From Alloalcanivorax xenomutans (GTDB taxonomy: Bacteria; Pseudomonadota; Gammaproteobacteria; Pseudomonadales; Alcanivoracaceae), in NCBI RefSeq assembly GCF_900217905.1, contig NZ_OBMO01000007.1:62001-126000 (forward strand): a DNA stretch of 64,000 bases, given 5' to 3'. Of the stretch, positions 44,859-53,953 are shown piece by piece (the stretch's first letter is position 1; every line of letters starts with the position of its first letter). The notes under the pieces are model-generated. The model had not been told where the DNA came from. It saw nothing but the letters and a program-made list of their open reading frames with translations, and made no database searches. A program made the translations under genes and the position numbers.

Positions 44859-44950
44859 CTACAACACCACTGTGGGAGCTTGCCTGCAAGCGAATGGGCT
44901 TCCGGGCCCCAAGATTCGCTTGCAGGCAAGCTCCCACAGTGGTGTTGTAG
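44859..44950. repeat. REP-like inverted repeat pair, copy 6 (perfect)
   Basis: A 37-base arm (44859-44895) pairs without mismatch with 44914-44950. The core GTGGGAGCTTGCCTGCAAGC is as in the other copies, but the outer part is CTACAACACCACT instead of CTACGAAGCCGCT, changed in both arms so that pairing is kept. It lies in the 594-base gap between the acyl-CoA synthetase and aldehyde dehydrogenase genes, which holds no gene I can support. Confidence 0.9.
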
Positions 44951-45128: not shown

Positions 45129-45238
45129 AGCGGAGCCGCGTTATACCTTTGCGGGACCCTGTCGAACAGGGACGTTCGACCGGGAGCCTACATGGACGTA
45201 TTCACGGCGTTCCCGCAAAGGTATAACGCGGCTCCGCT
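45129..45238. repeat. 110-bp element with 28-bp perfect inverted termini
   Basis: The left terminus (45129-45156, beginning AGCGGAGCCGCGTTATACC) is perfectly inverted at 45211-45238. The 54-base interior has a small hairpin, CCCTG-TCGAA-CAGGG. A related 16-mer, CAGCGGAGCCGCGTTA, occurs alone at 44788-44803. The shape fits a small non-autonomous inverted-repeat element (MITE-like); no target-site duplication is obvious. Confidence 0.7.
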
Positions 45239-45283: not shown

Positions 45284-46771
45284 TTAATACCGCACCGTCA
45301 CCGACTTCAGTTCGGTGTAATCCTCGATGAAGGCGCTGCCGAACTCCCGGCCGATGCCGGAGCCCTTGACGCCACCGAACGGCACCGCCGGATCGATGAA
45401 GGTGTGCATGTTCACCCACACCGTGCCCGCTTCAATGCGCGGCACCAGACGCAGGGCCCGGGACAAATCGTTGGTCCAGAGGCTGGCGGTGAGGCCGTAG
45501 GGACTGTCGTTCATGAGGGAGAGCAATTCCTCTTCGTCATCGAAAGGCAGGAAGCACGCCACCGGGCCGAACACTTCCTCTTGCAGCAAAGTGGCATCGC
45601 GACGATCCGCCACCGCCAGGGTTGGTTCGATAAAGAAGCCAGGGCGGTCCAGCGCCCGGCCACCGTGGACGATCTCGCAACCCTGATCGGGGGCACTGGC
45701 GAAGTACTGGCTGACTTTTTCGAAGTGCGGGCGGTTGGAGAGCGGTCCAAAGTCGGTGCTTTCATCCAGCGGCGAGCCGATTTTGAGCTGCTTCAGCTGT
45801 GCCGCCACGCCGTCGACGATTTCATCCAGCCGTGAGCGGTGCACGTAGAACCGTTCCGCCGCCGCGCACACCTGGCCTTGATGCAGATAGGCCGCTTCCA
45901 TGACACCCGCCACTGCTTTTTGGGTGTCGATATCAGCGAGAAAGCCGGCGGCGTTCTTGCCGCCCAGCTCCAGAGTGGCACGGGTCAGGTTGGCTTGCAT
46001 GGCCTGGGCGCCAACCCTACGGCCGGTGCTCATGGAGCCGGTGAACGAGACCTTGTTGATCTTTTCGTGCTCGATCAGCGCCTGGCCGCAGGCGCCGGTG
46101 CCGCAGACCACGTTGAGAACGCCGTCGGGCAGGCCGGCTTCCTTTGCCAACCCGGCCAAACGCAGCAGGGTGAAGGGCGTGAACTCGCTGGGCTTGATCA
46201 CCACGGTACAACCGCAGATCAGTGCCGAGGCAATTTTCCAGATGGCGATCATCAATGAGAAGTTCCACGGCACGATACCGGCCACCACGCCGACCGGTTC
46301 GCGTAACGTGAAGGCGGTGTAGCGTTCGCCCTGCATGGAAGGCAGTGACGGTGTCAGTGTCTCACCGTTGATCTTGCCGGCCCAGCCGGCGTAATAGCGA
46401 AGGAAATGGCTGCTTTGTCCTACTTCGAAGGCCCGGGACAACTGAATGGTCTTGCCGGAGCACAGCGTTTCCAATTGCGCGAGCTCCTCCCCATGCTGAT
46501 CGATCAGATCGGCGAGCCGGTTAAGGATGGCGCCACGCTGGAGTGGCGCCATATCCCGCCAGACGCTGTGAAAGGCGTGGTGGGCGGCGTTCACCGCAGC
46601 GTCTGTTTGCGCCGGTTCCGCCTCCCGTACCTCCGCGAAGGTTTCGCCGGTGCCGGGGTTCACCACCGGATGGGCCGGACCGGTGGCCCGGCCATAGTCG
46701 CCGTTGATGAAACAATCATGGCCTTGCTGCAGGAATGCCCGCACCTCGGGTAATAAAGCGATGTCGCTCAT
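45284..46771 (-). CDS. Aldehyde dehydrogenase, FeaB/phenylacetaldehyde type (aromatic amine cluster)
   Basis: A 495-residue NAD(P)-dependent aldehyde dehydrogenase. Catalytic Cys302 (HQGQVCAAAERF), Glu268 (ATLELGGKNAAG) and Asn170 (IVPWNFSLM) have the expected spacing; Lys193 is in VVIKPSE. VPWNFSLMIAIWK and LELGGKNAA are closest to FeaB/phenylacetaldehyde dehydrogenases in memory. It is the last of seven genes on the minus strand, 18 bp after the porin-like gene. It would oxidise the arylacetaldehyde made by the amine dehydrogenase to an arylacetate. Substrate is inferred from context. Confidence 0.9.
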   Translation of the reverse strand: MSDIALLPEVRAFLQQGHDCFINGDYGRATGPAHPVVNPGTGETFAEVREAEPAQTDAAVNAAHHAFHSVWRDMAPLQRGAILNRLADLIDQHGEELAQLETLCSGKTIQLSRAFEVGQSSHFLRYYAGWAGKINGETLTPSLPSMQGERYTAFTLREPVGVVAGIVPWNFSLMIAIWKIASALICGCTVVIKPSEFTPFTLLRLAGLAKEAGLPDGVLNVVCGTGACGQALIEHEKINKVSFTGSMSTGRRVGAQAMQANLTRATLELGGKNAAGFLADIDTQKAVAGVMEAAYLHQGQVCAAAERFYVHRSRLDEIVDGVAAQLKQLKIGSPLDESTDFGPLSNRPHFEKVSQYFASAPDQGCEIVHGGRALDRPGFFIEPTLAVADRRDATLLQEEVFGPVACFLPFDDEEELLSLMNDSPYGLTASLWTNDLSRALRLVPRIEAGTVWVNMHTFIDPAVPFGGVKGSGIGREFGSAFIEDYTELKSVTVRY

Positions 46772-46789
46772 GGTCCAGTCCTCATTGCA

Positions 46790-48106
46790 TTAAAACGAAA
46801 AGGCGACGATCAATTGGCTGTACAGGTTGCGATCGTCATTACCTAATTGCGTGCCACCATCGGCGGCGGCGCGGTCCGGTTGGTACAGGCCGATGACCGG
46901 AATCAGGGCGAGGTGGTCGTTCACCGCCCATTCCAGATAGAGGTCGTATTCCCGGGCACTGGTGTCCGCTCCGGCGTCCCGGTCCAGAGTGGTGAAGTCG
47001 TAGGCCAGCAAACCGAGCGACAGGTTTTCCTTTGGCGTCACGGTCGCGGCGAGATGATGGACTCGTGAATTGGTGTTGAACGGTCCAGCGTAATTCGCCG
47101 CCACTTCGCCCTGGAACCAGGTGCCTAGAGCGCGGCCATTACCGTAGAGCAGCGGATCGTAGCCGGTGGAGAAACGGCTGAATCGATAATGGATACTGGG
47201 CCGCCAGGGCATCCCGGAGAAGGTCCAGCCCAGTTCCGCGTACCAGGCGTTTTCATCACCCTGGTCCTGATCCTGCCAGGCGTATTCCGCGGCCAGGAAA
47301 AGATTCTCCACGCCAGCGTTGCCCTGAGCGCGCAGGCTGACGGTTTCCATGTCATCCCGTTGCGGATAGAGGAAGGCGAATTCGTCGTCGAGATCGGTGA
47401 CCTTGACGTAGGTGAGGCCCACGGTGCCTTTGTCGTTTACATGCTCCAGCACACCAATGTTGAGCTCCGGTTTGGCCTGGGCCGGGTTATCGGATTGCAG
47501 CCACATGACGTCACCGCGCCAGCCTTGTTCGCCACCCAGGCTGATGATGGCAGTCTTGTCGAAGGCGCTGCGGCCGGCAAGATAGTAAGCACCGCCGCGG
47601 TTCAGCGCGCCGTCGGCGATGCCCTTGCCGAAGTTCAGCGAATCACTGGTGATCAGAAAGCCGTCGCCGACGATCACGCTCTGGCGGCCGGCGGACACCG
47701 CCAAGCCATCGTTGCCGAGGACGGGAAACAGGGCGCCGGAGTGCCAGGTCAGGAAAGCATCCTCCAGTTTGGTGGTGCGCTCGCCGCCATCGGAGAAACC
47801 GGCGGCGTCACCATCACCCCAGGTGCCGGTGGAGGTCCATCTCAGGGCGCCGGTGACACGTTGATCCCGGGCCAGCCGGTGTTCGCCGCTGATGCCATAC
47901 TTCACCGCGCCTTCCTGCCAGGTGACGCTGCCCTCGTCGAGAGTGCCGGCCTGGTCGTAGCTTTCCTGACTGTGCAGCCAGGCGGCGGTGCCGGAAACAT
48001 CGAAATTCAAAGTAGTATGATCGTTGTTGGTCAATTCCAGCGCTTGTGCACTGGTGGCCATTAGCAGGAGAGAGCCCCCGGCAAGGGGGGCGAGCCTGAT
48101 GCGCAT
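46790..48106 (-). CDS. Outer-membrane channel, alginate-export-like family
   Basis: A 438-residue beta-barrel protein with a signal peptide (cleavage after SAQA) and C-terminal phenylalanine (LIVAFSF). Alternating amphipathic strands fill the length, and blocks such as LEDAFLTWHSG, AGRQSVIVGDGFL and AWYAELGWTFSG recall the alginate-export/OprE-like group. No alginate genes are near. Lying 18 bp after the cytochrome gene and 18 bp before the aldehyde dehydrogenase gene in the amine cluster, it may let aromatic amines cross the outer membrane. That role is inferred. AGAGGA lies before the ATG. Confidence 0.8.
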   Translation of the reverse strand: MRIRLAPLAGGSLLLMATSAQALELTNNDHTTLNFDVSGTAAWLHSQESYDQAGTLDEGSVTWQEGAVKYGISGEHRLARDQRVTGALRWTSTGTWGDGDAAGFSDGGERTTKLEDAFLTWHSGALFPVLGNDGLAVSAGRQSVIVGDGFLITSDSLNFGKGIADGALNRGGAYYLAGRSAFDKTAIISLGGEQGWRGDVMWLQSDNPAQAKPELNIGVLEHVNDKGTVGLTYVKVTDLDDEFAFLYPQRDDMETVSLRAQGNAGVENLFLAAEYAWQDQDQGDENAWYAELGWTFSGMPWRPSIHYRFSRFSTGYDPLLYGNGRALGTWFQGEVAANYAGPFNTNSRVHHLAATVTPKENLSLGLLAYDFTTLDRDAGADTSAREYDLYLEWAVNDHLALIPVIGLYQPDRAAADGGTQLGNDDRNLYSQLIVAFSF

Positions 48107-48124
48107 GATGAATGTCCTCTGTTG

Positions 48125-48658
48125 TTATGGCGCTGTGGCGGGCATGCCGTCGTTGATGTCGATACCCTGGTCGCGCATGGCACGGATCAGTCCGGCCCGG
48201 GTGCCGGGAATGTTGTCCATCATCCGGTGTCGAATCGCCGCCACTTCATCGGCGCTATAGGGCTCGGCGCCGGCCGGGGTGCTGTCCCCGGCGATGCCAT
48301 CGCGGCGCAGGATCCAGTTCAGCAGCGCCGCCAGTTGTTCGTCGTTCAGCGCCGCCTGAGCCACGCCAGGTACGCGCACCAGAAATTCCCTTCCCCCCGG
48401 TACGCGCAGAAAGTTGCCGACAAAGCCGATCATGTTGGGTACATCGTTGGCGGGCGCGCCTTGCCCCTGGGGCAGATGGCAGCCCGCGCATTGCAGCTGA
48501 TAGTTCACCTCCGGGCGATAGCCGGCCCGTGACAGTGGCACCTGCGGTTGTTCATTACCGGGTGCTGGTTTCTGCCCGGGGTCGGGAAACGCCCGGGCAT
48601 GCCCGGCAGGGGTGGCCAGACAGGCAACGACCAGCAACAGTGGCGGCAACGGCTTCAT
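48125..48658 (-). CDS. Periplasmic monohaem c-type cytochrome of the amine dehydrogenase cluster
   Basis: A 177-residue secreted protein (signal peptide ending HARA, residues 1-22). One haem site, C57-A-G-C60-H61, follows a proline-rich stretch; no second CxxCH is present. Met76 (VPNMIGF) is a possible sixth ligand. The C-terminal ~50 residues (PYSADEVAAIRHRM onward) extend beyond a minimal cytochrome c. A small monohaem cytochrome also follows the light chain in the known aau cluster of Alcaligenes faecalis. It could accept electrons from the dehydrogenase or assist cofactor formation; it is not a MauG (two haems). It begins 7 bp after the light-chain stop. Confidence 0.85.
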   Translation of the reverse strand: MKPLPPLLLVVACLATPAGHARAFPDPGQKPAPGNEQPQVPLSRAGYRPEVNYQLQCAGCHLPQGQGAPANDVPNMIGFVGNFLRVPGGREFLVRVPGVAQAALNDEQLAALLNWILRRDGIAGDSTPAGAEPYSADEVAAIRHRMMDNIPGTRAGLIRAMRDQGIDINDGMPATAP

Positions 48659-48665
48659 ACCGGGC

Positions 48666-49190
48666 TCAGGCGCTGGCCACGCCGCGAATCACCGCGACGG
48701 TGCAGTTGTAGACGTTGGCCTTGGCGCCCAGGCACCAGTTGATGTCGTTGTTGTTGAACGGCCGGTACATCGGTTCCTCGCTGTCGTTACGGGTGCAGGC
48801 GCACTGACCGCAGCTGTGCTTACCGCAGCAATCGTTGTAGGAGATGATGTAGTCCAGGCCGTCCGCCGGGTTGCGGCAGGTGCCGATCCAGGTGACTTGG
48901 GAGACTTCCGTGCCCGGCGGACAACTGGTCACCGAGCCGCCGCAGCAACTGCACAGAAAGCCGTCCACGGAGCAGTAACGCCAGTAGTCGCAGCTGTTGG
49001 GATCGCCCGGATCACCGGCGGATGGCGACTCCGCGGCCAGCGCCTTGGCGGTGCGGTCGATGGGTAGCAGCACCGGCATGGCGGTGCCCACCACCATCAG
49101 GGAACCAAGTTTGGAAAGAAAATTCCGCCGCGACGTGGTGTTGGCCACGTGCCGGCTGGAGCGTTCGAAAAAACGGTCGAGAAATTTCAT
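48666..49190 (-). CDS. aauA: Aromatic amine dehydrogenase, TTQ-bearing light chain
   Basis: A 174-residue precursor. The leader carries a Tat motif, SRRNFLSK (Arg21-Arg22), normal for this family. The mature part aligns with methylamine dehydrogenase small subunit: TTQ would form from Trp101 (QVTWIGTC) and Trp152 (NDINWCLG), whose 51-residue spacing equals W57-W108. Asp76 (SVDGFLC) and Asp120 (SYNDCCGK) match the maturation/catalytic Asp32 and Asp76. Fourteen cysteines are present instead of twelve: extra Cys83 (CSCCGG) and Cys127 (KHSCGQCAC) are features of aromatic rather than methylamine dehydrogenase. AGGAG lies before the ATG at 49190. Confidence 0.95.
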   Translation of the reverse strand: MKFLDRFFERSSRHVANTTSRRNFLSKLGSLMVVGTAMPVLLPIDRTAKALAAESPSAGDPGDPNSCDYWRYCSVDGFLCSCCGGSVTSCPPGTEVSQVTWIGTCRNPADGLDYIISYNDCCGKHSCGQCACTRNDSEEPMYRPFNNNDINWCLGAKANVYNCTVAVIRGVASA

Positions 49191-49205
49191 GGTCGGACTC
49201 CTGGC

Positions 49206-49811
49206 TCAGGACGGCGTATGCATGGAAGGGGAGGGCTTGTTGAGGTATTCCTGCAGGGTGGCCGCGCCCAGGTGCTCGGTTTCGAACAGGCTGTCCAGGT
49301 GTTCCCGTGAGTTCACCAGCCCTTTGGCCTTGAGCACGCCCTGACCATCGATCATCACCGCGTAGGGCAGCTTGCCGATCTGATAGGTCATGCCCACCTG
49401 CGGGCTGACCACGTAGCGAGTGCCTTCCAGCCCGAATTCCTTGATCAGTTTTCGTTGCTGTTCCGGCTCACCGTCGCTGATGTACACCACTTCCAGATCG
49501 TCGCGGGCCTTATCGATGGCACGCAACGCCGGCAACAGGGATTTGCAGATCGGGCAAGTCGGTGACAGGAAGAACAGCAGTTGAGTGCGATCGGCGGCGT
49601 AGCCGAAGTTCACCGGACGCCCCAACAGATCCTCGGCGGTAACCTGGGGCGCGGGCTGATTCACCGCCACGCCTTTGTCCACCATAAGAGCGCCGGCGGG
49701 GGCGATACGAGCGTGCAGAACACCGATCTGACGGATCAGGCCAAACACCACCAGAGCCAGGGCGATCAGTAAGCACCAGAGCAGAATGTTGGAAATCAAT
49801 AGAGCAGTCAT
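49206..49811 (-). CDS. aauD: MauD-like thiol:disulfide protein for light-chain maturation
   Basis: A 201-residue thioredoxin-like protein. An N-terminal membrane anchor (residues about 2-27) precedes a periplasmic domain with the redox pair Cys86-Pro-Ile-Cys89 (LSPTCPICKSLLPAL). MauD proteins help form the many disulfides of the light chain; without them the light chain is degraded. The gene is 15 bp upstream of aauA and 6 bp downstream of aauE. Length is normal for MauD. Confidence 0.9.
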   Translation of the reverse strand: MTALLISNILLWCLLIALALVVFGLIRQIGVLHARIAPAGALMVDKGVAVNQPAPQVTAEDLLGRPVNFGYAADRTQLLFFLSPTCPICKSLLPALRAIDKARDDLEVVYISDGEPEQQRKLIKEFGLEGTRYVVSPQVGMTYQIGKLPYAVMIDGQGVLKAKGLVNSREHLDSLFETEHLGAATLQEYLNKPSPSMHTPS

Positions 49812-49817
49812 AGCGTA

Positions 49818-50357
49818 TTACCTTCCGGTCAAAGCAAGCAGGCGCGGCCGATTCGCCAAGAGGGCATCGGTCGCGGCGTAAATCAGCAGGGTCGCGGCGC
49901 CGGCGGCCAACACCACGAAACCGTCGAATAAACCCAGGGTGCGTTCGGCCACGGGCAGGCCGGCCGGTATCGCCAGGGCGATCAGCAAGCCATTGCGGAT
50001 CAGCAGCAACGGATGCAGGGGTTGCTGACTGTTGGGGCCGGCGCAGCCGCAATCGAGATCGTGGCGCCCGCGCAGCAGATTGGTGATCATGGCCAGGGCG
50101 TAGAGCGCGAGCAGGCCGGCGGCGAGAACGGCGCTGGTGACGCGGCTGGGCTGGAACAGCAAGCCCAGGGCCAACGCGCCTTCCAGAACCGGCAGTGCGC
50201 GGGCGGTGACCGTGGTCAGACTCGTTGGCAACAGCTGGTAGGCATCCAACTGGCGTTCGAACCAGGCCGGTGCCTGCAATTTATGCAGCGCCGCGCTGGC
50301 CAGGATCACCGCCAGGGCCAGGGCGCCGGCGATGCTGATAATCGGATCCAGCGTCAT
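49818..50357 (-). CDS. aauE: MauE-like membrane protein (DoxX-related)
   Basis: A 179-residue integral membrane protein with four or five hydrophobic segments. ALAVILASAALHKLQAPAWFE and ARALPVLEGALALGLL are typical of the MauE family; a cysteine pair, DLDCGCAGPN, lies in a loop. In mau and aau clusters MauE and MauD act together in folding and transport of the light chain. GGAGGAA precedes the ATG. It sits between the heavy-chain gene and aauD, the same order as in Alcaligenes faecalis. Confidence 0.9.
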   Translation of the reverse strand: MTLDPIISIAGALALAVILASAALHKLQAPAWFERQLDAYQLLPTSLTTVTARALPVLEGALALGLLFQPSRVTSAVLAAGLLALYALAMITNLLRGRHDLDCGCAGPNSQQPLHPLLLIRNGLLIALAIPAGLPVAERTLGLFDGFVVLAAGAATLLIYAATDALLANRPRLLALTGR

Positions 50358-50371
50358 GGTTATTCCTCCAC

Positions 50372-51514
50372 TCAGTGATTGAGGATCAGCGTTGGGGTTT
50401 TGCTGACGCCTTCCATGGTGTGAAGGTGCTTGCCGGTTTTCAGATCAAAGGTCTCCAGGCCGCCCTCGATGTTGGTGCCCAGCAGCAGCGGCGCGTCATC
50501 GTTGGTGGCGTTGAGGCTCCAGATCAGATTAGGAGCCTCCAGCGTGCCGACCTTTTTGTGGGTCTTCAGATCGAACGCCCAGATGATGGTGCTCGGATCT
50601 TCCCACTTGTGCCGCTCATGATCCGGATGCATCAGTACGTAGAGACGATTCAGTCGCGGTGCGATGGCCATCAACTGCCAGCCGCCGGGGGCCCAGCCGT
50701 CTTTCTTTTCTTGTTCGCTGGTCAGGGACCAAGTGGGCAGGACCTTGGGTTTGGCGCCGGAGAAATCGACACCGTGAATGACGCCCTCGGTGGTAACGAA
50801 ATAGAAGGTGTCGCCCAGATGGATGGCCCTTTCCACCAGCTTCTCCTGCTCCGGGTCGAAGAATTGGGTGGTGGTGCGATCACTGACCTTGCCGTTGTCA
50901 TCCAGGGTGGTGACTTGCAGATCACCACTGCCGCACAGGGATGCGAAACGCCGGTCACCAATCGGGTAAGCGAGAATGCAGCCGTTGATGTTGACCTCGC
51001 TGGCCACTTTTTGGGCCTGGGTATCGACCACGGTAATGGTTTGTGACGGCGTGAAGTTGTAAACGTAAACAAAGCGGTCATCGCCGCTCATCGACAGCGC
51101 GTACTTCTCGGTCAGCGTGGAGGCGCGCTTGGCGGGGATTTCCACTTCCCAGGAGGGGGACAGGGTGCGGGTATCCCAGGCGGTCAGCACATCGGTACGG
51201 GTGCCGCGCACATAGCGGCTGAAAAAGATATCGGCGGTGTAGACCGTCTTCTGATCGTGGGCCAGCACCGCCGGCGCGGCGCCGCCGGTACTGAGCATGC
51301 CCAGCACTTTTTGTCGGTCCGGATCCACCACCACCACCCGGGTGGCGACCATGTTGTCGAACTCGAAGTCGATCAGATAACTGCGATGAGGACTGGGAGG
51401 GAAAGGCAGTTCGGCCTGGCCGACGGTTTCGGTCGGCAGCGCCGCGTACAAGGACGGTGGGATCAGTGCGGATCCCAGCGCCAGCAGGCCGGCGGCAAAT
51501 TTGGACAAAGGCAT
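50372..51514 (-). CDS. aauB: Aromatic amine dehydrogenase, heavy chain
   Basis: A 380-residue periplasmic beta-propeller with a signal peptide (cleavage after SLYA). Family blocks include DFEFDNMVATRVVVVDPDRQ, KTVYTADIFFSRYVRGTRTD, FVYVYNFTPSQTITVVD and WQLMAIAPRLNRLYVLMH, all typical of the MauB/AauB heavy chain. It pairs with the TTQ light chain as an alpha2beta2 enzyme that deaminates primary amines and passes electrons to a small periplasmic carrier. The start is the ATG at 51514 (AGGGA upstream). It heads a seven-gene run; two TGCCAA repeats lie upstream. Confidence 0.93.
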   Translation of the reverse strand: MPLSKFAAGLLALGSALIPPSLYAALPTETVGQAELPFPPSPHRSYLIDFEFDNMVATRVVVVDPDRQKVLGMLSTGGAAPAVLAHDQKTVYTADIFFSRYVRGTRTDVLTAWDTRTLSPSWEVEIPAKRASTLTEKYALSMSGDDRFVYVYNFTPSQTITVVDTQAQKVASEVNINGCILAYPIGDRRFASLCGSGDLQVTTLDDNGKVSDRTTTQFFDPEQEKLVERAIHLGDTFYFVTTEGVIHGVDFSGAKPKVLPTWSLTSEQEKKDGWAPGGWQLMAIAPRLNRLYVLMHPDHERHKWEDPSTIIWAFDLKTHKKVGTLEAPNLIWSLNATNDDAPLLLGTNIEGGLETFDLKTGKHLHTMEGVSKTPTLILNH

Positions 51515-51599
51515 GGTGATTCCCTGTTTTTGGTTATCGATGGCATGGAACACTGCCTTCAGTCTGCGCCGGTCAGGGAAGGGGAAGCTTGAGAATGGG

Positions 51600-51626
51600 T
51601 GCCAACCCGTTGGCTATTCTTGCCAA
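51600..51626. promoter_or_regulatory. AraC-type operator candidate upstream of aauB
   Basis: TGCCAA occurs at 51600-51605 and again at 51621-51626, exactly 21 bases apart (two helical turns), with an inverted TTGGC between them at 51610-51614. The site ends 85 bases upstream of the aauB start. Spaced direct repeats like this are usual for AraC-family activators; the FeaR-like gene at 53000 is the candidate binder. Confidence 0.55.
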
Positions 51627-51642
51627 GACTAAGAGCAGGCTC

Positions 51643-52173
51643 TTAGAGGCGGGCGCGTACCCGTTGCTGAATGTCGCGAAGCTGGGGTTCGCTGAGTGTG
51701 GTGAGCGTATGCAGGCGTTCGGGCAGTCCGCTGCTCTTGCGCTGAACGTAGAGATTGAAGCCTTTGCGTCGATCCCCGCGCACCTGAATATCGGCGATAT
51801 CCTCATAGGGTATGAGGGCCAGCCGTGGGCGCAAGGTGGTGCCGAACAGAACCCGGAGGATGTCCCCGAACAGGGCTGGCCGGTCGGGCAGCGGCGCCAG
51901 AGGGACGTAGTGGATCCCGTGATCGTCCAGTCGGCAACGGATAACCCGGCCGGTACACCACAGCAAGGCCAGCCCGATCATCAGAAACGACAGGCTCATG
52001 CCCGCCATGATGACGCCGGGAAAGCTGACCAGCGAGGTCAGATAGAAAAGAATGCTGTCCTTCAGCGATTCACCCGTGCCCAGGCAGATCCAGACCGGCA
52101 GGAACCCCATGAAAGTGAAGATGGTGCCCGAGATGGCGGTGGGATAGCGCTTCAGGTAGTAGGATGTTGCCAT
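51643..52173 (-). CDS. Small membrane protein with PH-like C-terminal domain, function unknown
   Basis: A 176-residue protein (start taken at the ATG at 52173; 52200 and 52230 are also open and no site is strong). Two hydrophobic segments (FTFMGFLPVWICLG and SLVSFPGVIMAGMSLSFLMIGLALLW, read in parts) are followed by a soluble part with HGIHYVPLAP and LIPYEDIADIQVRGDR, which resembles bacterial PH-like domains. It stands between the amine cluster and its likely regulator and is divergent from the gene at 52199. No function is assigned. Confidence 0.65.
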   Translation of the reverse strand: MATSYYLKRYPTAISGTIFTFMGFLPVWICLGTGESLKDSILFYLTSLVSFPGVIMAGMSLSFLMIGLALLWCTGRVIRCRLDDHGIHYVPLAPLPDRPALFGDILRVLFGTTLRPRLALIPYEDIADIQVRGDRRKGFNLYVQRKSSGLPERLHTLTTLSEPQLRDIQQRVRARL

Positions 52174-52198
52174 GTCCGTATTTCGCCGGTAAGCGTCC

Positions 52199-52993
52199 AT
52201 GAACGGATTCAAGCACAAAATGGCGGTCAATACCGCCGATCCTGCCCGCGGCTTTCTCTTTGTGGCGTTGCTGTGGCTATGGCCGGTGGTGCCTTGGGCT
52301 ACGGAGATTGGTCCGCCGGGCGTTTATCTGGATTTTGCCGGCGACCGTCAGGACCGGTACCAGGGGCAACTGACGGCGCCGGAATTCACCGAGCCGCTTT
52401 ATTTTCTGCTATCGGATTGGGTCGCCGCCGATATCGACGTTGCTGGCGCCGAAGGCACGGTGGTGGCCCGGTTGAGCCGGGAGATGGGGGATATCTGGGG
52501 CGGGCCGGGCAGCTATGATCTGGCGGAAGGGCCGGCGCCGGACAGCGGCTCCTGGTTCGCCGGCGTCCTGGCGCCGGGACGCTATGCGCTGTGGGTGGCG
52601 TCACCGCAACGCAAGTCCCTCTCCTACACCGTACTCATGACGGCGCCATCGCGCCGGCCCCCAGAGGTTTGGAGCGTGGCGCTCGGGCGTCTGTCGCGGG
52701 AGCCGATCCTGGTTACCGAACAACTGGAGGCACCGGTACTGACGCATCGTTATCAGGTGAGGATCGACCGTGAGGTGTTGTTGGAAGCGACGCTCGGCGT
52801 GACCGGGCCGATACCTCGGCTGCGGATTCTGTCCGCCGGTGGCCACCACGCCGTGGCACATACCCATGATGGGGAGGATGGCGTGCGCGTCCGGGTGCCG
52901 CCGGGCCGTTATCAAGTGGAGATCAGTGGCGAGCGGCCCGCGCACTATGACCTGACACTCCATGCCACGGGGTTTTCCGCAAGCAGGCCCTGA
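52199..52993 (+). CDS. Exported hypothetical protein
   Basis: A 264-residue protein with a hydrophobic leader (FLFVALLWLWPVVPWATEIG) and a mature part rich in beta strands. The repeats GSWFAGVLAPGRYALWVAS and VRVRVPPGRYQVEISGERP look like two pre-peptidase-C-like or jelly-roll domains, but that is only a resemblance. The start at 52199 or 52220 is uncertain, as no good ribosome site is seen. It is convergent with the AraC gene, with stops 6 bp apart. Function unknown. Confidence 0.65.
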   Translation: MNGFKHKMAVNTADPARGFLFVALLWLWPVVPWATEIGPPGVYLDFAGDRQDRYQGQLTAPEFTEPLYFLLSDWVAADIDVAGAEGTVVARLSREMGDIWGGPGSYDLAEGPAPDSGSWFAGVLAPGRYALWVASPQRKSLSYTVLMTAPSRRPPEVWSVALGRLSREPILVTEQLEAPVLTHRYQVRIDREVLLEATLGVTGPIPRLRILSAGGHHAVAHTHDGEDGVRVRVPPGRYQVEISGERPAHYDLTLHATGFSASRP

Positions 52994-52999
52994 CCGACA

Positions 53000-53953
53000 T
53001 CAGTTGTGACGGCCCCGTGCCTGCAGACGCCAGTCGCTGGGGCTGATGGCGAAGGCCGCCTTGAAGCTGCGGCTAAAGGACGCACTGTCGGTAAAGCCGT
53101 AATCCAGAGCCACTTCAAGAATGCTGCGATGGTCATTGTCGGGCAAGGCGAGAGCGTCGCGCACCGCATCCAGCCGCACCTGGCGGATGAAGCGTCCGGG
53201 GGTGACCTGGTGCTCCTGAAACAGGCGGTACAGGGCGCGCCGGGACACATGCAGCGCCTCGGCCAGTTCGTCCGGGCTCAAATGCGGGTCGTCGATATGG
53301 GCAAGCACATGCTGATGGGCGGTATCCAGCCGAAGGGTAGGCGAGGCCTGACCCGCCGGCCTGACGGAACAATGGATCAGGGCGGACAGCATTAATTGCA
53401 CCGCCTGAAAAATGGTCTGGGCGCTGTCGCCGTCGCCGGGGCGCTCCAGTAAAGCCAGCAGGGCGGCAAGGGCCGCGCGGGCGGTGGTGCGATCACTCAA
53501 CGAACGGCCGCAAAGACGGTCACTAATCTGGTGCCAGCCGGGCACCGCGTGATAGGGCAGGGTCAACACCGTCAATTGCGCCTGGTGATCTTTCTCCAAC
53601 CGATAGGGGCGGCTGGTATCGCACACGGTGATATCGCCGGGGCGCAGCACCGTACGGTGGCCATCCTGCTCCACCAGCATGCGCCCGGCCTGCTGCCACA
53701 TGACCTTGAGGTAGCCGGTTTCCGCCCGTTTGATGGCGTAATCGGTGCGGGTGAGCTGGCACTGGTCGGCACGGATCACCGCCACCGAGCGCTCGCCGAG
53801 GCTGGTCAGGCGCACCCGGGCATGGAAGTCGTCGTCCCGGGGCGAGGCGATCCTGAGCCAGGGGAAGTTGTCGTTGACGAACTGCCGCCACGGCTGAAAT
53901 CCCCGCAGGGTGCGGGTTTCCACAAGATGACTGGTGCTGGCTGCGGGTTCCAT
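53000..53953 (-). CDS. AraC family regulator, FeaR-like
   Basis: A 317-residue AraC-type activator. The N-terminal ~200 residues resemble the AraC_binding_2 domain of FeaR (FHARVRLTSLGERSVAVIRAD, GDITVCDTSRPYRLE). The C-terminal domain has two HTH units: LSPDELAEALHVSRRALYRLFQE and EVALDYGFTDSASFSRSFKAAF. FeaR activates the copper amine oxidase and phenylacetaldehyde dehydrogenase of E. coli in response to phenylethylamine. Here it lies on the same strand 1.5 kb upstream of a TTQ amine dehydrogenase operon, a strong contextual match. GGAGGG precedes the ATG. Confidence 0.85.
   Translation of the reverse strand: MEPAASTSHLVETRTLRGFQPWRQFVNDNFPWLRIASPRDDDFHARVRLTSLGERSVAVIRADQCQLTRTDYAIKRAETGYLKVMWQQAGRMLVEQDGHRTVLRPGDITVCDTSRPYRLEKDHQAQLTVLTLPYHAVPGWHQISDRLCGRSLSDRTTARAALAALLALLERPGDGDSAQTIFQAVQLMLSALIHCSVRPAGQASPTLRLDTAHQHVLAHIDDPHLSPDELAEALHVSRRALYRLFQEHQVTPGRFIRQVRLDAVRDALALPDNDHRSILEVALDYGFTDSASFSRSFKAAFAISPSDWRLQARGRHN

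Follow-up and report, generated by a model that had tools for sequence, protein, structure and literature searches.

A single-haem cytochrome as a candidate for tryptophan tryptophylquinone formation in an Alloalcanivorax amine dehydrogenase operon

How an aromatic amine dehydrogenase (AADH) makes its tryptophan tryptophylquinone (TTQ) cofactor without MauG is, to our knowledge, an open question, and nothing on the subject was found among the titles and abstract openings searched in an open-access library. The question is raised by a seven-gene operon in a 64,000 nt stretch of Alloalcanivorax xenomutans DNA (the window), whose gene families were assigned by Pfam, NCBIfam and PDB comparisons. 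Directly behind aauA, the gene for the TTQ light chain (48666..49190, minus strand), lies cyt2 (48125..48658, minus strand), which encodes a monohaem c-type cytochrome of 177 aa without an axial-methionine loop. In methylamine dehydrogenase (MADH), TTQ is formed by MauG from a light chain that already carries its first hydroxyl, itself thought to be introduced autocatalytically (PMC7876137), and MauG has two haems, for which a bis-Fe(IV) state is described (PMC6405878). We tentatively propose that cyt2 replaces MauG in TTQ formation, a reading to which we give somewhat less than an even chance.

Sequence and fold of the cytochrome

The only CxxCH motif of cyt2 is CAGCH at residues 57–61 (48476..48490, minus strand), of which C57, C60 and H61 are kept in 90 of 90 relatives and in 43 of 43 diverse members. 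The protein scores 22.1 bits against Pfam Cytochrom_C (PF00034), over the cut-off of 21.3, and gives no match to PF03150; its N-terminus resembles an export signal. Downstream of the haem motif no methionine or histidine is invariant, either in the 90 relatives or in the 43 diverse members, and the highest conservation reached there in any single column of 120 members is 85 for Met, 23 for His, 76 for Lys and 1 for Cys. M76 was dropped as a conserved axial ligand, as Met occupies this position in only 75/90 and 85/120 sequences, and the MP dipeptides found in 33 of the 120 were also rejected because they belong to the linker that follows the NW helix.

In place of the axial-Met stretch of c552-type cytochromes, cyt2 has a short loop with V96-P97-G98 (48365..48373, minus strand) that lies at an alignment gap; this loop reads [VA]PG in 119 of 120 members and VGG in one. 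A control is provided by 15 loci with tandem cytochromes (L119, L126, L127, L130, L131, L133, L158, L159, L161, L162, L164, L165, L167, L168 and L169), where a cyt1 of the usual Met type stands between the light chain and cyt2. The cyt1 family has one invariant Met in 13/13 aligned sequences, an alignment that omits L159 as well as L131, itself nearly a duplicate of L133. When cyt2 is aligned by profile with cyt1 or with Thermus cytochrome c552, the roughly 20 residues that bear the Met face a gap. The predicted cyt2 model (pLDDT 89.2) matches Thermus c552 (1c52) with Z 11.0 and 2.6 Å over 111 residues at 34% identity, and the structure comparisons leave room for further cyt2 relatives. Judged by alignments and predicted model, cyt2 is a cytochrome c552-type fold with the axial-Met stretch deleted, and its sequence is not that expected of a standard Met-ligated electron carrier. 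Its haem site would be open, the predicted model itself carrying no haem. A MauG fragment was also considered for cyt2 and is ruled out by the single haem and the c552 fold.

Distribution of cyt2 and MauG

We compared 133 light-chain loci, comprising the window, 80 named-genome loci (those that the scan retained out of 153 genome-contig stretches, mostly from Pseudomonas, Marinobacter and Alloalcanivorax), 35 further genome stretches and 17 plasmid records (from 31 records with a light chain), and looked for MauG and cyt2 within 7 kb. cyt2 alone is present in 120 loci, MauG alone in seven and neither in six; no locus has both. One of the cyt2 loci is L148, whose cyt2 had first been missed by the coverage rule. 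In all 120 cases cyt2 is on the same strand as the light chain, at most 100 bp behind it in 89 and at most 700 bp behind it in 119.

Three of the six loci with neither gene (L113 4772–6535 and L115 7652–9388, both in G120, and L147 7509–9304 in G954) are additional heavy/light pairs; their genomes have a full set at another place, and next to these pairs no aauE, aauD or cyt2 was found. Two others of mauF type, L122 and L123, come from short contigs, and a MauG-family gene is present elsewhere in both genomes (G333 and G312, respectively). The sixth, L160 on a Thermomicrobium roseum plasmid, is very distant: several open reading frames (ORFs) are weakly similar to the TTQ light chain, and the stretch fetched gave no match for a heavy chain, MauG or cyt2. 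Seven-CxxCH genes occur near the gammaproteobacterial mauF-type clusters L121, L122 and L123 (G070, G333 and G312), and are perhaps an unusual electron sink for MADH. In a 1.7 Mb genome (G006) the operon is split, with aauA-cyt2 on one contig (L117, 4651–9849) and ALDH-aauB-aauE-aauD, where ALDH denotes an aldehyde dehydrogenase gene, on another (L216, 5589–9404).

In genome-wide searches, 369 gammaproteobacterial genomes yielded 13 with a light chain above the Pfam cut-off and 289 alphaproteobacterial genomes yielded 10, an eleventh alphaproteobacterial one (G644) being under the cut-off and interrupted by stops. Strong cyt2 matches (E 9e-51 to 5e-41) were obtained in 10 gammaproteobacterial and 10 alphaproteobacterial genomes, all 20 of which have a light chain, so that 10/13 and 10/10 light-chain genomes (20/23) contain strong cyt2. 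The 635 genomes without a light chain yielded no strong match; weak ones, at 1e-9 to 1e-16, came from six gammaproteobacterial genomes, and at 1e-8 nothing was seen in the others. For the gammaproteobacterial genomes a one-sided Fisher test of cyt2 against light chain gives 2.5e-17 with relatedness ignored. The three light-chain genomes that lack cyt2 are mauF-type, and all three have PF03150 proteins. PF03150 was run on 14 of 31 light-chain genomes, namely these three and the 11 without a MauG-like match. Those 11, which include the window's genome, are among 28 cyt2 genomes and have neither a MauG-like match nor a PF03150 match; where a MauG-family protein is absent, TTQ must be completed another way. 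MauG-like matches in G735 and G149 were dropped as mau clusters because both are far from the genome's light chain, and the apparent inner stop in each gene is the gene's own stop codon.

Enzyme class, operon and pathway

The sequence-only reading of this DNA had assigned W101, W152, D76 and D120 of the light chain to the TTQ site, and all four do fall on conserved TTQ-site columns of the light-chain alignment (134 rows). The codons of the first and second TTQ tryptophans, W101 (48888..48890, minus strand) and W152 (48735..48737, minus strand), specify residues that we take to correspond to W57 and W108 in MADH numbering, and both are Trp in 120/120 cyt2-type and 7/7 MauG-type light chains. 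D120 is equally invariant (120/120 and 7/7) and D76 nearly so (119/120 and 7/7). Among the six loci with neither cyt2 nor MauG, one has a truncated light chain, and D76 and W152 are missing from L160. The same reading took the extra Cys83 and Cys127 as a mark of the aromatic type, which does not hold: the pair is present in 114/120 cyt2-type light chains and in that of Alcaligenes faecalis AADH, yet also in 2/7 MauG-type ones, and was dropped as a diagnostic.

The comparison with characterised enzymes that the sequence-only reading called for places the protein in the TTQ family and on the AADH side. Scores alone separate the classes little, with 158.8 bits for A. faecalis AADH, 159.3 bits for MADH 3c75 and 133 bits for Paracoccus denitrificans MADH; over the core, the light chain shares 54% of its residues with A. 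faecalis AADH and 50% with P. denitrificans MADH. Against the MADH equivalog models TIGR02658 and TIGR02659 the window's chains reach 176.6 bits (cut-off 454.45) and 177.4 bits (cut-off 196.85), and both miss. A tree of 47 light chains, which omits the very distant L160 and cyt2 rows at least 85% identical to a kept row, groups the window with A. faecalis AADH on a 35-row side with support 100/100. The 12 rows of the other side (100/100) comprise all seven MauG-type light chains, the cyt2-type L148 and L151, and three with neither gene. No mauF, mauJ or mauG was found within 7 kb of the window's light chain. It is very probable from these comparisons that the operon encodes an AADH-type TTQ enzyme, for which the crosslink and the activity are predicted. 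The window's light chain falls in its own subclade with Pseudomonas, so that the tree does not fix the exact amine. The light chains of L147, L148 and L151 (family f370) lie on the MADH side, L148 and L151 with cyt2 and none with MauG nearby; a possible interpretation is that they are intermediate between the two TTQ systems.

The window does contain all of the seven minus-strand genes of the sequence-only reading, and its AraC-type gene as well, and the families stand as named, the channel being identified only weakly. The heavy chain, aauB (50372..51514), is a beta-propeller protein (PF06433, 2.6e-49) whose best PDB match is the AADH heavy chain 2h3x (1e-45). Its ORF begins with a GTG at 51553, but the true start is likely the ATG at 51514, 13 codons inside, because an AGGGA box precedes it and a signal-like stretch follows. 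Next come the MauE-like membrane protein aauE (49818..50357; PF07291, 5.6e-26), the MauD-like thioredoxin-fold protein aauD (49206..49811; TIGR02661, 212.7 bits, above its cut-off of 188.6) and aauA itself (PF02975, 1.5e-50; PDB AADH 2agl, 1.1e-45), which is assigned also by the tree. Beyond cyt2 are a probable outer-membrane beta-barrel, weakly AlgE-like channel (46790..48106), whose Alginate_exp match (PF13372, 20 bits) is under the gathering cut-off of 25.2, and a phenylacetaldehyde dehydrogenase-like aldehyde dehydrogenase (ALDH; 45284..46771; PF00171, 1.5e-161). The closest solved ALDH structure, 4o5h (2.1e-136), bears the name phenylacetaldehyde dehydrogenase, and the StyD model NF045735 is the top one among 42 families at 583.1 bits, under its cut-off of 850. 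The genes are closely packed as had been described, with gaps from aauB to ALDH of 14, 6, 15, 7, 18 and 18 bp; the range of 7–19 bp given before came from coordinate differences and is really 6–18 bp.

The AraC-family regulator (53000..53953, minus strand) lies about 1.5 kb from the operon, as had been noted, and FeaR is its nearest family, although its score against NF007243 (165.5 bits) is beneath the cut-off of 199. Between it and aauB are two ORFs that overlap at their start ends, 51643–52230 (minus) and 52199–52993 (plus); neither matched a Pfam or NCBIfam family, and homologues occur only in L016 and L017, the two nearest of the 80 named-genome loci. A pattern scan gave one promoter-like site (1.8 expected) and 10 terminator-like ones (7.8 expected), none of them notable. 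Two perfect inverted repeats, at 44859–44950 (37-nt arms) and 45129–45238 (28-nt arms), appear REP-like by eye and occupy the space in which an acyl-CoA synthetase-like gene and the ALDH gene run towards each other.

The idea that only this genome has such an operon was rejected, as the order aauB-E-D-A-cytochrome recurs in 80/80 named-genome loci. The neighbours were counted within the fetched flanks, which reach at least 8.5 kb on both sides in 65 of the 80: a channel homologue is present in 35 loci, an ALDH of at least 50% identity in 25 and a FeaR/AraC homologue in 31 (a loose count, the family being large), with all three in 18. The combination is thus not unusual, and what is special is only the run of cytochrome, channel and ALDH on the operon's own strand, seen in 2/80 loci, which come from very close relatives (L016 and L017). 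L016 (A. balearicus) is the nearest named record, with 99% of the light chain shared. In another family, G202 has a channel (41%) and an ALDH (45%) directly ahead of aauB. A same-genus genome, G544, gave no light-chain match, and the operon therefore looks accessory.

The suggestion of a self-contained pathway from aromatic amine to arylacetate is reasonable in view of the ALDH, the regulator and two adjacent PaaA/PaaC-family genes in the genome, the last of which make a route via phenylacetyl-CoA plausible. In the proposed scheme the FeaR-like protein would turn the operon on and the channel would admit the amine to the periplasm, where the aauA/aauB enzyme, with TTQ formed from W101 and W152, would deaminate it. 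The aldehyde would pass into the cytosol and be oxidised by ALDH to arylacetate for the Paa route, while aauE and aauD would aid export and folding of the disulfide-rich light chain.

Candidate roles of cyt2 and the closest known systems

A cyt2 lacking the loop with the sixth haem ligand could bind O2 or peroxide and provide the oxidising power that converts the two tryptophans into TTQ, as di-haem MauG does for MADH, and would then not be chiefly an electron carrier. This maturation role is favoured because cyt2 is regularly present, linked to the light chain, absent beside MauG and devoid of the ligand loop. The separation of aauA-cyt2 from aauB-E-D in G006 and the extra heavy/light pairs without aauE, aauD and cyt2 both agree with a task performed on the light chain. 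It is possible, if short of probable, that AADH-type TTQ is made by a single-haem carrier relative turned dedicated modifying enzyme, so that the same cofactor would have two haem solutions, found together in no gene cluster. The full account, in which a periplasmic aromatic (aralkyl) amine dehydrogenase route to arylacetate is combined with cyt2 as TTQ maker, is likewise put forward with less than even confidence.

A number of observations weigh against cyt2 as the TTQ maker, and several of them speak for the credible but doubtful alternative that it is the physiological electron acceptor of AADH, with a non-conserved sixth ligand (Met99 in many members and a different residue in the others) or as a five-coordinate carrier, TTQ being formed by autocatalysis or by an unlinked enzyme. 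Both the operon position and the c552-type fold suit a carrier. Met occupies residue 76 in 85 of the 120 members, the window's included, and residue 99, right after VPG, in 58 of them (V99 in the window), which lowers the odds of the maturation role; at least one Met lies between residues 91 and 104 in 77. Some members may still be Met-ligated, and a ligand could possibly be supplied by a partner protein. No plastocyanin/azurin/amicyanin-family match was found in the window's genome, so something other than an azurin-type protein, and on this alternative some cytochrome, must accept the AADH electrons there; as the operon also contains no Met-type cytochrome, cyt2 is the nearest candidate. A relative of P. 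denitrificans MauG is encoded elsewhere in 17/28 cyt2 genomes and could act in trans, the proteins of G735 and G149 being 60% and 53% identical to it, and the extra heavy/light pairs without cyt2 would fit a carrier shared in trans equally. No catalytic residue was identified in cyt2, and its single haem could not form the two-haem bis-Fe(IV) state that is described for MauG (PMC6405878). Foldseek alone returned nothing at E ≤0.001, the best match being Thermus c552 at 1.6e-3. The comparative pattern also has its weaknesses: the cyt2 model was trained solely on proteins beside light chains, no more than 10–13 candidates were scored in each genome search, and independent cases are fewer than the raw counts, many cyt2 loci being close Pseudomonas relatives and four of the seven MauG loci being from Paracoccus. 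Channel, ALDH and regulator each score below a curated specific cut-off.

A carrier role does not, however, predict the exclusion of MauG, and it fits poorly with the absence of any conserved Met, His, Lys or Cys position downstream of the haem motif, with the retention of cyt2 in the 15 loci that already encode a Met-type cytochrome, and with its keeping to the light chain where the heavy chain is elsewhere. A different support task, in which cyt2 scavenges peroxide or oxygen near the TTQ enzyme or senses an amine, an aldehyde or a gas, would suit the putatively open haem site and the export signal-like N-terminus, but is quite improbable, as it explains neither the either/or pattern with MauG nor why the 635 genomes that have no light chain gave no strong match. 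Independently of what cyt2 does, AADH-type could denote a structural class, and the enzyme could act on other primary amines such as histamine, polyamines or long-chain amines. The similar identities of the light chain to AADH and P. denitrificans MADH and its separate subclade are consistent with this, as is the L117 light chain, which follows aminotransferase and ALDH genes; we regard it as unlikely in view of the phenylacetaldehyde dehydrogenase-like ALDH, the FeaR-like regulator and the PaaA/PaaC-family genes. As a side observation, genes of class-III aminotransferase, FAD oxidoreductase and ALDH type precede aauA-cyt2 in L117, and at a guess the split operon of G006 possibly encodes a TTQ enzyme for polyamines.

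The operon points to one specific, small and expressible candidate for TTQ formation, backed by a molecular reason, the lost ligand loop, and by a clean pattern in the comparison of loci and genomes. If cyt2 does make TTQ, it would represent a second haem route to a peptide-derived cofactor, aid the deliberate production of recombinant AADH-type enzymes, and correct the electron-carrier annotation of this gene in Pseudomonas, Marinobacter, Burkholderia, Paracoccus and others.

The closest known system is the aau/AADH system of A. faecalis (2agl, 2h3x), which has the same heavy- and light-chain types, the four TTQ-site residues and the extra Cys pair. A Microbiology paper of 2001 on its aau genes reportedly gave the order BEDA-cytochrome, with no MauG in the sequenced cluster. 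In comparison, the window adds a channel and ALDH in the same direction and a FeaR-like gene, its light chain belongs to a different subclade, and its genome has no azurin-family match. The mau/MADH clusters of Paracoccus and Methylobacterium (L155, L156 and L163) have homologous B, E, D and A genes but contain mauF, mauJ, amicyanin and di-haem mauG and no cyt2, whereas the window misses the MADH cut-offs. Like MauG, cyt2 is a c-type haem protein in the gene cluster of a TTQ enzyme, for which the same task is proposed; it differs in having one haem, 177 aa, no PF03150 match and a cytochrome c552 fold. That fold, including the C-terminal part, is common to cyt2 and Thermus thermophilus cytochrome c552 (1c52), from which cyt2 differs by the absence of the stretch of about 20 residues that holds the axial Met, presumably M69. 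At the level of the pathway, the tynA/feaB/feaR genes of Escherichia coli and the pea genes of Pseudomonas also lead from amine through aldehyde to arylacetate with a regulator and an ALDH, but use a copper amine oxidase or a cysteine tryptophylquinone (CTQ) quinohaemoprotein rather than a TTQ enzyme.

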